A DNA stretch of 64,000 nt from Micromonospora sp. 15K316 (GTDB taxonomy: Bacteria; Actinomycetota; Actinomycetes; Mycobacteriales; Micromonosporaceae). Where the stretch lies: positions 1 to 64,000 of the forward strand of contig NZ_SMKG01000003.1 of NCBI RefSeq assembly GCF_004348525.1, written 5' to 3'. The notes beneath the pieces are model-generated. The model had not been told where the DNA came from and searched no databases. It saw only the letters and a program-made list of their open reading frames with translations. Position numbers and translations under genes: made by a program. This document shows, in pieces, positions 5,448-37,980 of the stretch. The first letter of the stretch is position 1. The number at the start of each line of letters is the position of its first letter.

Positions 5448-6092
5448 GTGACCGCGCCCACCTCCACCCCCCTCACCCCGTACGCGACGCTGCTCGGCTT
5501 CACCCGCTACGTCGACCGCACCGGCCCCACGAAGGCCACCTTCGTCGGGGGCCTGCGCAAGCAGCGGGCGAGCCGGCACGGCTTCAACCCACACGGCCAG
5601 TTCGTCAAGGCGCTCAAGGCCGACATCGCCTTCCACACCGGCGGCACCCACCTCGACCAGGTGGCCGACCAGGTCAAGCCCCGCTGGCGTCCGCTCTACC
5701 AGGCGCTGGTGCCGGGCGCGACTGCCTGGCTGCGCTCCCTCGGCGAGCCCGCCTCGATCGATCTGGCTCAGACCCGCGACGCCCTCGCCATGCTCGGCGA
5801 CCTGCCCGTCAAGATCAACCCGCAGTTCGGCGTACGGCACGCCGACGGGCGCGTCGAGGCGATCCGTCTGCACTTCGACGAGACCCCGCCGAGCGAGGAG
5901 GCGGTGCTCGCCACCCTGCACCTGATGGCCCGCCACATGGACGCCGTGCTCCCGCACGCCGAGCCGGTCCTGGTCGACGTGCGGCGTGGCCAGGCGTACC
6001 GGATGCCCGAGGGCGTCAAGCCCGACCAGGTCGAACGTTGGCTCGCCGGCGAGGCCGCCGCGTTCCGCGCCCTCTGGTCCACCGCCGCCTGA
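5448..6092 (+). CDS. Conserved hypothetical protein, 214 residues
   Basis: I do not recognise the family. The protein is soluble with no signal or membrane segment. It begins with a basic segment containing FVGGLRKQR and HGFNPHGQFVKALKAD, then alternates helices and strands; the C-terminal half contains KINPQFGVRH and an IRLHFDET strand. The GTG start at 5448 follows a GGGAGG ribosome site 8 bp upstream and an A+T-rich palindrome (5400-5421). The gene stands alone between the divergent DUF4331 gene and a DUF559-type gene. Codon use is typical of the neighbours, supporting a real gene. Confidence 0.75.
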   Translation: MTAPTSTPLTPYATLLGFTRYVDRTGPTKATFVGGLRKQRASRHGFNPHGQFVKALKADIAFHTGGTHLDQVADQVKPRWRPLYQALVPGATAWLRSLGEPASIDLAQTRDALAMLGDLPVKINPQFGVRHADGRVEAIRLHFDETPPSEEAVLATLHLMARHMDAVLPHAEPVLVDVRRGQAYRMPEGVKPDQVERWLAGEAAAFRALWSTAA

Positions 6093-6114
6093 CCCACCCC
6101 ACCTCGGTCGCGTT

Positions 6115-6181
6115 CCGCGCAACATCCGGGCAGTCGCTACCTCCGCCTCGGCGAAGGCACGGCGTCCCGGATGTTGCGCGG
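6115..6181. repeat. Large inverted repeat, copy 1 of a palindromic repeat family
   Basis: A perfect 16-bp inverted repeat (CCGCGCAACATCCGGG at 6115-6130, its complement at 6166-6181) encloses a 35-bp loop. The arm shares the core CCGCGCAAC..TCCGGG with the palindrome at 7166-7245 on the other side of the DUF559-type gene. Both loops include a CCGCCTCGG stretch. It may act as a terminator for the 5448 gene, but relatedness to the second copy suggests an interspersed repeat. Confidence 0.7.
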
Positions 6182-6256
6182 ACATCCGGGTCGGGGTGCC
6201 ACCAGGGTTATCCACAGGGTCTGCGCAGGGGCCTGCCTGGCATCCACAGTGGCGGC

Positions 6257-7150
6257 ATGCCCGTCTCACCTCGTCGCCCCGTTCCCTTGCGGGGGCGCGT
6301 CTTCCGCGGCTCCGACGCCGTCGCCCGAGGGCTCCTGACCCGGGGCGAACTACGCAGCCGAGCGTGGCGACCGCTCTTCCGGGACGTCTACGCCGACGCC
6401 CAGCTGGCGGTCTCGCACCACACTCGCTGCCTGGCGGCGGCGCGGTGGGTGCTACCCGACCAGGCCGCGATCGCCGGACGAAGCGCGGCCGCCCTCTACG
6501 GGATCGGTTCGGTGGGCCCGGCACAGCCACTCGACGTCCTGGTGCCGATGGGGCACCGGTTCGGACCTGTCACCGGGCTCGACATCCACACGGCGGCGTC
6601 GACCGAGGCCGATCTGCGAGTCCGCGCCGGAATTCGGGTGACCACGGCAGTGCGCACCTGCTGGGATCTGGCCCAGTGGCTTCCGGTCGAGGAAGCGGTG
6701 GCGCTCGTCGACGGATTCGTCCGGCAGCGGCTGGTGGGGGTCGACACCGTGCAGGGCTACGCGCGCGCCCGGACGGGGCTACGCGGGTGGAAACGGATGC
6801 TCCGCGTCGCGGATCTGACGGATCCGGGAGCGGAGTCACCTCCCGAGTCGGTGCTGCGGGTTCGACTCGTGATGGCGGGTCTACCGAGACCGGTCACCCA
6901 GTTCGTGGTGGAACGGGACGGTAGGTTCCTCGCCCGGGTCGACCTCGCGTGGCCGCAGTTCAAGGTCGCGGTCGAGTACGACGGCGTCTGGCACCACGAT
7001 CCCGAGCAGCTGCACCGCGACCGCCGTCGCCTGAACCGCCTCGTCGGCCAGGATTGGACGGTGTTGCACGTGACCGCGAAGCGCCTCAAGGAGGACTTCG
7101 AGGGCGTCGTGACCGAGATACGCCAGGCGCTCCGCTCCCGAGCCCGCTGA
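6257..7150 (+). CDS. AbiEi/DUF559-type protein with Vsr-like endonuclease fold
   Basis: 297 residues in two parts. The N-terminal half (RGLLTRGELRSRAWRPL, RDVYADAQ, AALYGIG) resembles the winged-helix AbiEi-like module common in actinobacteria. The C-terminal part (about 195-290) carries a DUF559/PD-(D/E)XK pattern: Glu197 in PPESVLR, Asp229 in RVDLAWP and Glu240 in VAVEYDG, then a Trp/His-rich helix. I infer a nuclease-like fold but no known substrate. The reading frame is open further upstream to 6038, but the ATG at 6257 gives the family's usual N-terminus and avoids reading through the inverted repeat at 6115-6181. Such genes are frequent, multicopy and poorly understood in Micromonosporaceae. 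Confidence 0.8.
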   Translation: MPVSPRRPVPLRGRVFRGSDAVARGLLTRGELRSRAWRPLFRDVYADAQLAVSHHTRCLAAARWVLPDQAAIAGRSAAALYGIGSVGPAQPLDVLVPMGHRFGPVTGLDIHTAASTEADLRVRAGIRVTTAVRTCWDLAQWLPVEEAVALVDGFVRQRLVGVDTVQGYARARTGLRGWKRMLRVADLTDPGAESPPESVLRVRLVMAGLPRPVTQFVVERDGRFLARVDLAWPQFKVAVEYDGVWHHDPEQLHRDRRRLNRLVGQDWTVLHVTAKRLKEDFEGVVTEIRQALRSRAR

Positions 7151-7165
7151 CGCCGGCCAGAACGG

Positions 7166-7245
7166 CAAGATCCGCGCAACTTCCGGGAAGTTGCCGCCTC
7201 GGAGCGAGCCGAAGCAGCAACTTCCCCGAAAGTGCGCGGATCTTG
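7166..7245. repeat. Large inverted repeat, copy 2; also possible bidirectional terminator
   Basis: Two 29-bp arms (7166-7194 and 7217-7245) match at 26 of 29 positions. The left arm is itself a near-perfect hairpin (CAACTTCC-G-GGAAGTTG). The core resembles the repeat at 6115-6181. Lying between convergent genes, it could terminate both. Confidence 0.75.
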
Positions 7246-7284
7246 AGGCAGGACCCCGGGTGGATCTTGCGGATCTGGGGGGGG

Positions 7285-8235
7285 TTAGGCGGTGAGGTGC
7301 TTTTGGAGGTCGTCGAGGATCTTGTTGGCGGCGCCGACACCGATGCCGGTCATCCAGACCTCGTCGGGCACGACGTACACCTTGTTGGCCTTGACCGCCG
7401 AGAGGTTCTTCCAGAGGCTGCCGCCGGTGACCTTGGCCTGCTCGGCGGCGGCCTTCTCGCCGAACGCCGTAACGAAGATGACGTCACCGTCGACCTCGCT
7501 GATCCGCTCGGGGCTGACCTCGTCGAAGCGCTTGTCCTCCTTGTTCGCCAGCAGCTGCCGCTCGGGGCGGGCGAGCCCGGCGTCACCGAGCACGATGCCG
7601 GAGAAGGAATCCGGGCCGTAGACCCGGATGCTGCCGGGGCGGAAGCGGACGATGGAGATCTTCTGCGCGGCGGCGGCGCCCAGCTTCGCGCCGAACTCCT
7701 TGGCCCGGGTCTCGTACTGCGTCAGCAGGTCCTTGCTCTCCTGCTCCTTGCCGAGCGTCTTGCCGTCGAGGAGGAAGTTCTCCTTCCAGGTGATGCCGAC
7801 CTTCTCGGTGAACACGGTCGGCGCGATGGCGGAGAGCTCGTCGTAGAACTTCTCCTGGCGGAACTTGCTGCCCAGGATGAGGTCCGGCTTCAGGGCGTTG
7901 ATCGCCTCGATGTCGGGCTCGCTGATCTGCCCGACGTCCTTGATGCTGGCGAGCTTCTCCTCGCCGAAGTAGGTCGGCCAGCCCTTCGCCTCACCCGTGT
8001 TGGTGGCCCCGACCGGGGTCAGGCCGAGCGAGAGCATCGTGTCGATCTTGTCGCTGTCGAGCACGACGACGCGCTGCGGGTGGGCGGGCACCTTGGTGGT
8101 GCCCATGGCGTGGGTGATCTCCCGGGTCTCCCCGCCGGCGTTGCTGCCGGCAACCGGGTCGCTCTCACCGCACGCGGTGAGTCCGACGCCGAGGGCGACG
8201 GCCGCGGCGAGAGCGGCGACGAGACGACGACGCAT
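7285..8235 (-). CDS. Iron-siderophore ABC transporter substrate-binding lipoprotein
   Basis: Captures a ferric siderophore outside the membrane and hands it to the permeases encoded upstream. The 316-residue protein has a lipoprotein signal with lipobox LTAC (Cys22), then the two-lobed periplasmic-binding FhuD/FepB fold: VPAHPQRVVVLDSD, SEPDIEAINALKPDLIL, and a C-terminal VYVVPDEVW segment. The ATG at 8235 overlaps the TGA of the ATPase gene as TGATG, so translation is coupled. The frame continues upstream inside the ATPase gene without meaning. It is the last gene of the iron-regulated operon that begins at 11348. The exact siderophore cannot be told from sequence. Confidence 0.92.
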   Translation of the reverse strand: MRRRLVAALAAAVALGVGLTACGESDPVAGSNAGGETREITHAMGTTKVPAHPQRVVVLDSDKIDTMLSLGLTPVGATNTGEAKGWPTYFGEEKLASIKDVGQISEPDIEAINALKPDLILGSKFRQEKFYDELSAIAPTVFTEKVGITWKENFLLDGKTLGKEQESKDLLTQYETRAKEFGAKLGAAAAQKISIVRFRPGSIRVYGPDSFSGIVLGDAGLARPERQLLANKEDKRFDEVSPERISEVDGDVIFVTAFGEKAAAEQAKVTGGSLWKNLSAVKANKVYVVPDEVWMTGIGVGAANKILDDLQKHLTA

Positions 8236-9167
8236 CAGTGTCCTTCCGAAGGGTACGAGCCGGCGAGGGCGGTCGCGCCGCCGGCTGGGGTTCCACCGGT
8301 GGATCCGGTGGGTGAGCTGGCCTCGGGGGCCGCGGCGGCACCGGCCGGAGCCGGCTCGGGCGTCCGCGCCGCCGGGTCGGCCAGGGTGGGGCTGGTGAGC
8401 GCGGGCACCACCAGCGGCGCGCCGGTCACCGGGCAGGGCACGACCACGCAGTCGAGCCCGAAGACCTCGCGGACCAGGTCCGCCGTGAGGATCTCGCGCG
8501 GCGGCCCGGCGGCCACCACGGCGCCGGCCCGCATGGCGACCAGGTGGTCGGCGTACCGGGCGGCCTGGTTGAGGTCGTGCAGCACGGCGACGACGGTCCG
8601 GCCCCGCTCGACGCGCAGCCGGTGCAGCAGGTCCAGCACCTCCACCTGGTGGGCCAGGTCGAGGAAGGTGGTCGGCTCGTCGAGCAGCAGCGCCTCGGTG
8701 TCCTGGGCGAGCGTCATGGCGATCCACACCCGCTGGCGCTGCCCGCCGGAGAGCGTGTCCACCGGCCGGTCGGCGAGGCCGGCGACGTCGGCGAGGGCCA
8801 TCGCGCGGTCCACGGCCGAGCTGTCCTCCTCCGACCACTGCCGCCACCAGCGTTGGTAGGGCTGCCGGCCCCGGCCGACCAGGTCCGCCACGGTGACCCC
8901 CTCGGGCACCAGCGGGCTCTGCGGCAGCACGGCGAGCCGCCGGGCGACCTCCCGGGTGGGCAGCTCCTGGATGGCCTTGCCGTCCAGCAGCACGGCGCCA
9001 CGGCGCGGGACGAGCAGCCGGGCCAGCGTCCGCAGCAGGGTCGACTTGCCGCAGGCGTTCGGTCCGACGATCACGGTGAACGCATCGGCGGGCAGCTCCA
9101 GGTCCAGCCCGTCCAGCACGGTCCGCTCGTCGTAGCCGGCGACCAGGTCGCGGGTGGAGAGCATCAC
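8235..9167 (-). CDS. Iron-siderophore ABC transporter ATP-binding protein (FecE/FepC type)
   Basis: Powers siderophore import. Walker A GPNACGKST (35-43), Q-loop LPQSPL, signature LSGGQRQR (139-146), Walker B LLLDEPTTFLD and the H-loop LHDLN are all intact. The start is either GTG 9167 or the adjacent ATG 9164; the GGGAGG site favours the ATG. The protein is 310 residues, about 50 longer than usual, because of an Ala/Pro/Thr/Gly-rich C-terminal tail from about residue 255 with no recognisable domain. Gene order permease-permease-ATPase-lipoprotein and overlaps on the downstream side place it in one transcription unit with iron boxes at 11370-11414. Confidence 0.93.
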   Translation of the reverse strand: MMLSTRDLVAGYDERTVLDGLDLELPADAFTVIVGPNACGKSTLLRTLARLLVPRRGAVLLDGKAIQELPTREVARRLAVLPQSPLVPEGVTVADLVGRGRQPYQRWWRQWSEEDSSAVDRAMALADVAGLADRPVDTLSGGQRQRVWIAMTLAQDTEALLLDEPTTFLDLAHQVEVLDLLHRLRVERGRTVVAVLHDLNQAARYADHLVAMRAGAVVAAGPPREILTADLVREVFGLDCVVVPCPVTGAPLVVPALTSPTLADPAARTPEPAPAGAAAAPEASSPTGSTGGTPAGGATALAGSYPSEGH

Positions 9168-10305: not shown

Positions 10306-11348
10306 GCGGTCACCACCTTCGCGCGGCGGACCAGGAGGGCGAGCAGGGGCGCGCCGACCAGGGCGGTGATGATGCCGGCCGGCACCTCGCCGGGCGGGTC
10401 GATGAGCCGCCCCACGATGTCGGCGCCGAGCAGCAGGGCCGGTCCGAGCAGCGCCGAGACGGTCAGGGTCCAGCGGTGGTCGGCGCCGACCAGCGCGCGG
10501 GCCAGGTGCGGCACGGCCAGACCGACGAACGCGACCGGCCCGGCGGCGGCCACGGCGGCGCCGGTGAGCAGCACGGCGGCGATCCCGCCGCCGAGCCGGA
10601 CCAGGCCGACGCGGTTGCCGAGCCCGCGCGCCACGTCGTCGCCGAGGGCCAGCGCGTCGAGGCCACGGGCGACCAGGGCGGCCAGGGCGAGTCCCGCGAG
10701 CACGAACGGCAGCACCTGCACGGCGACGGAGAGGTCGCGTCCGGTGAGCCCGCCCACCACCCAGAACCGGTACTCCTCGAAGGTGCGGGCGTCGATGCTG
10801 AGCAGGGCGAACACCACGGAGCCGAGGCTCGCGTCGAGCGCGGCGCCGACCAGCGCGAGGGTGACCGGGCTGGCGCCCTCGCGGGCGCGGGCGGCCACGG
10901 CGAAGACCAGCAGCCCGGCGAGGAAGGCGCCGCCGATGCCGAACCAGACGTACCCGGCGAGCGTGCTCACGCCGAACACGGAGATGGCCAGCACCACACC
11001 GAAGGACGCGCCGGCGCTGATGCCGAGGATGCGCGGCTCGGCCAGCGGGTTGCGGGTGAGGGCCTGGAGGAGCACGCCGGCGACCGCGAGCGCCACGCCC
11101 ACGGCGAGACCGAGGGCGGTACGCGGCAGACGCAGCTCGCGGACGATGGTGCTCGCCTCGCCGCCGTCGGGCGACACGAGGGCGTGCCACACCTGGTCGA
11201 CGGGGATCGGCCGGCTGCCGAGGGCGAAGCTGGCCAGCACGGTGAGCAGTAGCACCAGCGCGGCGGCGGAGGTGACCGCGATCCGGCGCCCGCGACGGGT
11301 GCCGGTGCGGCGGCCGGGGTCGACCGGCCGGCTGAGAAGGGTGGTCAC
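10302..11348 (-). CDS. Iron-siderophore ABC transporter permease (FecCD family)
   Basis: First gene of the siderophore import operon, 348 residues. It shows the family segments LRLPRTALGLAVGVALAVAGV, RNPLAEPRILGISAGASFG and VAFVGLAVPHLARALVG, with about ten hydrophobic helices and a C-terminal GEVPAGIITALVGAP loop that contacts the ATPase. Translation starts at GTG 11348 behind a CAGGAG site. Twenty-one bases upstream begins a pair of iron-box palindromes, so repression by an IdeR/DmdR-type Fe(II) regulator is expected. The stop overlaps the next permease start by 4 nt. Confidence 0.93.
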   Translation of the reverse strand: MTTLLSRPVDPGRRTGTRRGRRIAVTSAAALVLLLTVLASFALGSRPIPVDQVWHALVSPDGGEASTIVRELRLPRTALGLAVGVALAVAGVLLQALTRNPLAEPRILGISAGASFGVVLAISVFGVSTLAGYVWFGIGGAFLAGLLVFAVAARAREGASPVTLALVGAALDASLGSVVFALLSIDARTFEEYRFWVVGGLTGRDLSVAVQVLPFVLAGLALAALVARGLDALALGDDVARGLGNRVGLVRLGGGIAAVLLTGAAVAAAGPVAFVGLAVPHLARALVGADHRWTLTVSALLGPALLLGADIVGRLIDPPGEVPAGIITALVGAPLLALLVRRAKVVTA

Positions 11349-37935: not shown

Positions 37936-37980
37936 CGAATCTCGGACAGTTACCGCGGAACGGTAACTGTCCGAGATTCG
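37936..37980. terminator. Perfect 20-bp inverted repeat between convergent genes
   Basis: CGAATCTCGGACAGTTACCG (37936-37955) is followed by a 5-nt loop CGGAA and its exact complement (37961-37980). It sits between the PglF-like gene and the convergent CapG-like gene, as expected for a bidirectional terminator. The unusually long perfect stem with modest G+C could instead be a regulator site or repeat element. Confidence 0.7.

Follow-up and report, generated by a model that had tools for sequence, protein, structure and literature searches.

Do the two related palindromes that bracket a DUF559-family gene of Micromonospora belong to that gene? The question arises in the window, by which we mean the whole 64-kb stretch of DNA analysed here, where palindromes of one family adjoin a single AbiEi/DUF559-type gene on either side (Table 1). 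A first-pass annotation had recognised this arrangement correctly and left two readings of it: coincidence with an abundant repeat, or a mobile unit in which a nuclease-fold protein spreads with its palindromes, as RAYT/REP pairs do.

Table 1. Features of the locus, in positions of the window.
Feature	Position	Strand	Description
Anchor, upstream neighbour	5448..6092	+	In 121/121 genus genomes; no Pfam match; outside the unit, fixes the site
Upstream palindrome	6114..6182	.	17-nt perfect arms 6114-6130/6166-6182, 35-nt spacer; dispersed-repeat family 'type A'
DUF559-family gene, 297 aa	6257..7150	+	Predicted AbiEi-like fold and Vsr/EDxHD-type nuclease fold
N-terminal domain, residues 4-189	6266..6823	+	AbiEi-antitoxin-like fold: 6y8q Z 11.2, rmsd 5.8 Å over 167; 1zel Z 8.2
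C-terminal nuclease domain, residues 193-297	6833..7147	+	3hrl Z 12.5; 3r3p Z 12.4; 1cw0 Z 10.4; conserved E197, D229, E240, H246, D255
Downstream palindrome	7166..7245	.	Arms 7166-7202/7209-7245 (37 nt, 86% complementary), 6-nt spacer; same family as upstream
Convergent downstream neighbour	7285..8235	-	Periplasmic binding protein (PF01497); outside the unit

Both inverted repeats are real, with small corrections to their description: the upstream one, annotated at first as 6115-6181 with 16-bp perfect arms, extends to the limits given in Table 1, and the downstream one had its coordinates right but was credited with arms of 29 bp (26/29). The upstream palindrome (69 bp) ends 74 nt before the ATG of the gene, and the downstream one (80 bp) starts 15 nt past its stop codon. 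Their first 30 nt are 83% identical in register (family D10), the common in-register part being TCCGCGCAAC(A/T)TCCGGG...CTC. This shared core had been seen correctly; the CCGCCTCGG put forward as a common loop motif is not a shared loop, because its register differs by 6 nt from one palindrome to the other. Folded as single-stranded DNA, the palindromes reach z = -6.3 (upstream) and -9.0 (downstream), with 0/200 shuffles folding equally well, and in the list of close inverted repeats for the full window they take entries 1 and 11. The 6.96-Mb genome has only five exact copies of the core CGCGCAACWTCC, three of these at the window locus, where two are the arms of one palindrome. A scan for terminators of the T-run type (stem plus T-run) found no site in 5900-7500. 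A known RNA family is rejected as the identity of the palindromes, since nothing in Rfam passed its gathering score and the sub-threshold matches were to microRNA families only (21.6 vs 74 and 20.6 vs 70 bits). Elsewhere in the window, a 20-bp perfect inverted repeat with a 5-nt loop (CGAATCTCGGACAGTTACCG, 37936-37980) is unrelated to them in sequence.

The window protein passes the Pfam cut-off for DUF559 (27.8 vs 20.6 bits), and its AlphaFold2 model, built from 26 aligned homologues, has a mean pLDDT of 93.4. In this model the N-terminal part resembles the AbiEi antitoxin of S. agalactiae (6y8q) and Rv2827c of M. tuberculosis (1zel), while the C-terminal part matches NGO0050 (3hrl), the catalytic domain of the EDxHD homing endonuclease I-Bth0305I (3r3p; 2.7 Å over 96) and Vsr (1cw0). 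Foldseek alone returned no match at E 0.001 or better for the model, with 1zel and 3r3p ranked at the top; searching the PDB by profile recovered 3hrl (2.4e-6) and 3r3p (0.0028). Residues E197, D229, E240, G243 and D255 are invariant, and H246 nearly so, in 14 members down to 29% identity, and the same conservation holds in 26 members, with H246 in at least 90%. By our mapping, which follows the order of residues and not superposed side chains, the conserved E, D, H and D would be the EDxHD residues of homing endonucleases. With E197, D229 and D255 invariant and a match to 3r3p, the protein thus carries a Vsr-like catalytic domain with the conserved E, D, H and D, and the Vsr-endonuclease likeness of the C-terminus, proposed at first sight, is borne out by the predicted structure. 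Among 14 family members Pfam recognises MTES_1575 in 14, DUF559 in 12 and AbiEi_1 in 8; Pfam and PADLOC scans gave DUF559/MTES_1575/AbiEi and no Y1_Tnp.

The convergent gene downstream matches Peripla_BP_2, and the one after it (8235-9167) encodes an ABC transporter ATPase; its AAA_21 match, whose description reads 'putative AbiEii toxin' (35.2 bits), belongs to a set of generic ATPase matches scoring below ABC_tran (102.9 bits). By Pfam, the window locus has neither an AbiEii/DUF1814 toxin gene beside the DUF559 gene nor a methyltransferase among adjacent genes. Named close homologues are mostly from Micromonospora, the nearest being that of M. musae (88%). Homologues occur in 106 of 121 genus genomes (E 1e-20) and in 237 of 394 Actinomycete genomes, covering 102 of the 137 genera sampled (E 1e-12), often with several per genome. 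The window genome also has a fourth DUF559 gene (contig C144, about 10818-11009), which gave no tblastn match to the window protein; behind it, reading by eye, there is only a short hairpin TTGATCTTGGTACGAAT...ATTCGCACCAAGATC.

Bracketing was assessed at 136 homologous loci, 137 having been fetched across Actinomycetes and the fourth gene just described, with no match to the query, dropped before the count. The statistics come from a model-free inverted-repeat scan and are independent of our palindrome model R1, which was trained on bracketing palindromes and so finds these by construction. Of the 136 loci, 110 have at least one gene end with a palindrome no more than 250 nt away, and 58 have one on both sides; the remaining 26 have none at threshold. 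Palindrome density is 2.57/kb near gene ends, 0.118/kb elsewhere outside the gene and 0.016/kb inside it, an enrichment of about 22-fold. The expectation that copies might cluster near DUF559/AbiEi-type genes therefore held. Most palindromes span 50-89 nt (127/161), and the downstream one begins before the end of the stop codon in 18/86. The bracketing pairs (n=48, many from one clade) comprise 19 in inverted orientation, 5 direct and 24 ties. At one locus of a M. endolithica-like genome (L049:2413-2955) four similar palindromes stand behind the gene, spaced about 150-170 nt apart, which looks like tandem amplification of the element. A second family of 73-79 nt palindromes, containing GCTCTGCTTCA...TGAAGCAGAGC, is found in several Micromonospora at a neighbouring gap, about 580-950 nt downstream of the gene (L042, L054, L055, L058 and L310).

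We also compared the two flanks of each gene directly, whether or not they held a palindrome, against a null of random pairings of flanks. Matches exceed the 99th percentile of this null at 66 of 131 loci and the 95th at 87; by protein identity, the 99th is passed by 35/54 loci at 55% or more, 3/25 at 43-55% and 28/52 below 43%. The window's own two flanks score 38, between the 95th (33) and 99th (57.5) percentiles. Flanks displaced by 600 nt gave 0/127 above the 99th and 7/127 above the 95th. Control genes from 400 kb of one genome (G105) gave 0/317 and 5/317, with palindromes on both sides of 2/317 and downstream of 49/317; these stretches still include G105's own gene copy, which scores 96 with homology-set ends and is absent from the above-threshold set of 317, so that gene calling in the control is imperfect. 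A chance meeting of gene and abundant repeat, to which the high copy number of G105 lends some colour (in 400 kb, 10 places including the two that bracket its own gene; about 150 copies by extrapolation), is extremely unlikely in view of the 22-fold enrichment and of the matched flanks at 66/131 loci vs 0/317 control genes. The coincidence reading of the first-pass annotation can therefore be set aside.

The palindromes differ in sequence between protein clades and tend to agree on both sides of one gene; an exception is L038, the nearest relative, where the upstream and downstream palindromes belong to two different types and the flanks score 35. The window genome holds three dispersed families, each with its own bracketed gene: 'TCCGCGCAAC(A/T)TCCGGG...' for the window gene, 'TGATCATGA(A/G)GTT(A/G)TTG...' on either side of a gene on contig C7 and 'GAAGTCGGGGT(A/G)TC...' on either side of a gene on contig C187. 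A similar picture comes from 17 paralogous loci in three genomes of one genus, perhaps Mycobacterium (G123, G278 and G408). There, the match between flanks lies above the null 99th percentile in 12/17 and above the 95th in 14/17, the inverted-repeat scan finds a palindrome near an end in 13 and on both sides in 6, and the types that could be read differ between paralogues. For one type in G278 (that of L206), the two bracketing copies are 95-100% identical to the query and the only five dispersed copies found are diverged, at 74-89%.

Using a covariance model built from 26 elements, we located the type of the window gene at 17 places in its own genome at E 1e-4, the two bracketing ones included; the copy on contig C133 fits the C187 type better. 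C7-type palindromes occupy 21 places (E 1e-3) and C187-type ones at least 40 (40 of 88 candidates scored). Sampled dispersed copies are intergenic in 50 of 52 cases, and the 28 with both neighbours called lie between convergent (13), tandem (13) or divergent (2) genes. An even spread at gene ends with no link to this gene family would have spoken for ordinary terminators; the location half of that pattern is true, but the absence of a link is not. Several copies sit within about 120 nt of the starts of contigs of the window genome (C407, C190, C135, C223, C247, C404, C227, C160, C296 and C386), which suggests that assemblies break at such hairpins; draft assemblies therefore probably undercount the palindromes. 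One dispersed copy (C108:5867-5960) has an extra half-unit inserted, which shows that nesting or rearrangement of elements can occur. The exact points at which lone dispersed palindromes had inserted were not located, the neighbouring sequence being too diverged, and we saw no clean insertion site or target duplication.

Across the genus, 92 of 121 genomes have hits of the window palindrome family at E 1e-4. The family is present in all 61 genomes with a close homologue of the gene vs 31/60 without, in counts that ignore phylogeny and use a threshold for 'close homologue' (best E below about 1e-71) picked after seeing the tables. At least 10 strand hits occur in 56/61 vs 18/60, and the median is 29 vs 1; at most the best 39 candidates per genome enter these counts, which saturate and are hence lower bounds. 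Two genomes with copies split over two hits (G004 and G029) were kept in the 'remote' class. Many palindromes without a close homologue are seen in G091, G092, G044, G064 and G078, of which G091 has 38 hits and no homologue.

At the main site the geometry was followed in 33 loci with both neighbours, 30 of them with a scored upstream palindrome. In the 11 loci nearest the window (within L037-L057, and L062), the upstream palindrome lies 70-75 nt from the start codon and 13-76 nt from the anchor stop; over all 30 loci the ranges are 54-122 and 13-225 nt. Since the distance to the start is steadier than that to the anchor stop, the upstream palindrome goes with the DUF559 gene and not with the neighbour. 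We then read the site in 40 of the roughly 68 genus genomes without the gene there, both neighbours being kept in part of them. A single family palindrome, with both neighbours in place, remains in six (G063, G091, G064, G023, G088 and G006), and G116 has a shortened one, again with both neighbours. In G118 two palindromes enclose a stretch that matches 27 codons close to the end of the gene, in G060 the gene is broken, and in G053 the site is cut by a contig end. At the remaining 30 sites no palindrome of types A-D was recognised next to the anchor, where an ordinary GC-rich hairpin is often seen, and the downstream neighbour falls within the sequence read in 7/30; among these readings, the hairpin of G047 may belong to another type and the palindrome of G008 is 326 nt away. 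Comparison of strains for presence or absence of gene and repeat, as had been suggested, thus finds the whole unit, a lone palindrome, a decayed gene or neither at the window's site.

Close homologues occupy at least three chromosomal sites in the genus, with 44 of 53 at the main one. From these placements the gene itself is mostly inherited in place, and loci within a clade are therefore not independent. Signs of movement, likewise read from sequence, are the three or more sites, the lone palindromes, the decayed copies and two gene copies in Phytohabitans maris. The latter lie in different surroundings and show 91.4% identity over 941 bp. What they have in common runs from position -40 through the gene and ends shortly after the stop, leaving out the flanking palindromes; with their differing downstream palindromes, they indicate that gene and palindrome can part. 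Two P. maris scaffolds (L334 and L335) share 3394 identical bases, one ending right behind the gene and the other running on into a palindrome. Spread on plasmids or phages is rejected, the family being found in 5/72,556 plasmid records and 1/50,697 phage records; of two plasmid records opened, one (H1) has housekeeping-type neighbours and the other (H2), 11.85 Mb long, carries no annotation in the part concerned, and both look chromosomal. Of the proposed mobile unit, in which the nuclease-fold protein would spread with its palindromes as RAYTs do with REPs, the linkage, the dispersal and the co-occurrence are upheld, and spreading of the gene is less supported, given 44/53 at one site.

We now propose a nuclease-palindrome unit in the window, consisting of a chromosomal gene with an AbiEi-like and a Vsr/EDxHD-like part, set between two palindromes of its own, in an arrangement like that of a REPtron and built on a non-HUH nuclease. 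This reading, which we consider probable with some reserve, brings together bracketing, matched flanks, paralogue-specific types, dispersed intergenic copies, co-occurrence, predicted fold and conserved active site. The protein would bind its cognate palindrome as a dimer through the AbiEi-like part, and the nuclease part would cut or nick it, perhaps in an extruded hairpin form. Repair from another copy could then spread palindromes to new intergenic sites, keep the bracketing pair alike and at times remove the intervening gene, so that a single palindrome stays behind. An additional role as transcription barriers may explain why copies at convergent gene ends are tolerated, and autoregulation through the upstream copy, as well as use of dispersed copies as terminators, may exist alongside. 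AbiEi proteins are described as binding inverted repeats, by which AbiEi antitoxins autoregulate (PMC7319586), and I-Bth0305I as dimerising on a target of nearly 60 bp (PMC3943268), a length close to the spans of most palindromes here. We would give even chances to the wider proposition that AbiEi-Vsr fusion nucleases form an HUH-independent class, selfish or domesticated, each recognising, maintaining and spreading its own long palindrome across Actinomycetes chromosomes, with several pairs per genome.

A more conventional account would make the palindromes ordinary regulatory parts, the upstream one an operator for self-repression by the AbiEi-like protein and the others terminators or members of a regulon, with no nuclease-driven spreading. 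It draws on the autoregulation of AbiEi antitoxins through inverted repeats (PMC7319586), the fairly fixed distance from upstream palindrome to start, the share of convergent, tandem and divergent positions among dispersed copies and the other GC-rich hairpin behind the anchor at many unit-free sites. An operator role leaves the conserved nuclease active site unexplained, however, and neither the matched palindrome directly behind the gene nor the dozens of dispersed copies sit well with it; the region has no T-run terminators, and control genes often carry a downstream palindrome (49/317) yet never matched flanks above the 99th percentile. We hold this account to be unlikely. Ordinary terminators as the whole story are rejected, since the palindromes track the DUF559 gene over the upstream stop and control genes have no matched flanks.

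Insertion sequences that insert into REPs offer the model for another explanation, in which the repeats are independent and the nuclease gene homed into them, with the repeat as target and, in the flanking pair, that target duplicated or shared. Lone palindromes without the gene at the same site would fit, as would the P. maris copies, common from -40 to just past the stop and without common flanking palindromes, and a homing endonuclease is among the closest solved catalytic domains. Against homing stand the fairly constant spacing from palindrome to start codon, the overlap of the downstream palindrome with the stop codon in 18/86 and the few palindromes in genus genomes lacking a close homologue (median 1 vs 29 strand hits); it is also difficult to see why individual paralogues should each own a repeat family if the protein had no part in maintaining the repeat. 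On balance this origin is rather improbable. That a conventional HUH transposase (RAYT) spreads the palindromes, with the DUF559 gene a bystander, is very unlikely: the window genome does encode one Y1_Tnp protein (PF01797, C310:33381), but the 3351-base locus around its gene contains no palindrome, and all three families bracket DUF559 genes.

How does the nuclease-palindrome unit compare with known systems? REPs are preceded by a conserved tetranucleotide, GTAG or CGTC. A REPtron is described as a tnpA-REP gene beside its REPs, dispersed palindromes of 20-50 nt, the gene being mostly single copy and housekeeping-like (PMC8266576). Like it, the unit has one chromosomal gene with palindromes of its own type on either side, intergenic dispersed copies whose abundance correlates with the gene, mostly vertical inheritance and rarity on plasmid records. 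In contrast, its enzyme is a predicted Vsr/EDxHD-fold nuclease with an AbiEi-like domain and not HUH/Y1, its palindromes are mostly 50-89 nt long, and there are several paralogue/palindrome pairs per genome. It is therefore not a REPtron member, the defining HUH enzyme being absent; it would be a REPtron variant if any gene keeping its own palindromes counted as that kind. I-Bth0305I shares the fold of the catalytic domain and conserved residues in EDxHD order, but here no intron is seen, the gene is free-standing between palindromes, the DNA-binding part is AbiEi-like and one protein faces many dispersed sites. Type IV AbiEi antitoxins share the N-terminal fold, in a family that binds inverted repeats, whereas the window gene has no Pfam toxin match in two adjacent genes, a nuclease domain, and palindromes on both sides and dispersed. 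Vsr shares the C-terminal fold; unlike this mismatch endonuclease, the window gene lacks an adjacent methyltransferase match and is tied to palindromes. As far as seen, the unit is neither an intron homing system nor a recognised toxin-antitoxin pair.

We rate the nuclease-palindrome system as a new kind, because the known families tested either fail a defining feature or cover one domain only. Among the matches listed from open PubMed Central full text, which leaves most subscription papers outside, none describes cognate palindromes accompanying DUF559 or AbiEi-nuclease genes; with matches listed in part and that scope, priority is not certain. A term search of the portion of the main text available for two REP surveys (PMC3733652, PMC6006769) found no mention of Actinobacteria, Micromonospora or Mycobacterium.

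Homologues of the protein are present in most of the Actinomycete genera sampled, and the family's Pfam name still reads 'unknown function'. A nuclease recognising such long palindromes would be of interest for DNA-cutting engineering. The upkeep of a repeat family by one chromosomal gene is described as a question still open for REPs (PMC8266576), and three pairs in one genome make a test bed with built-in controls for it. If it is true that these proteins keep their palindromes alive and spreading, the REP/RAYT arrangement would have a second, unrelated origin, and a share of the gene-end hairpins in Micromonospora and its relatives would be accounted for.
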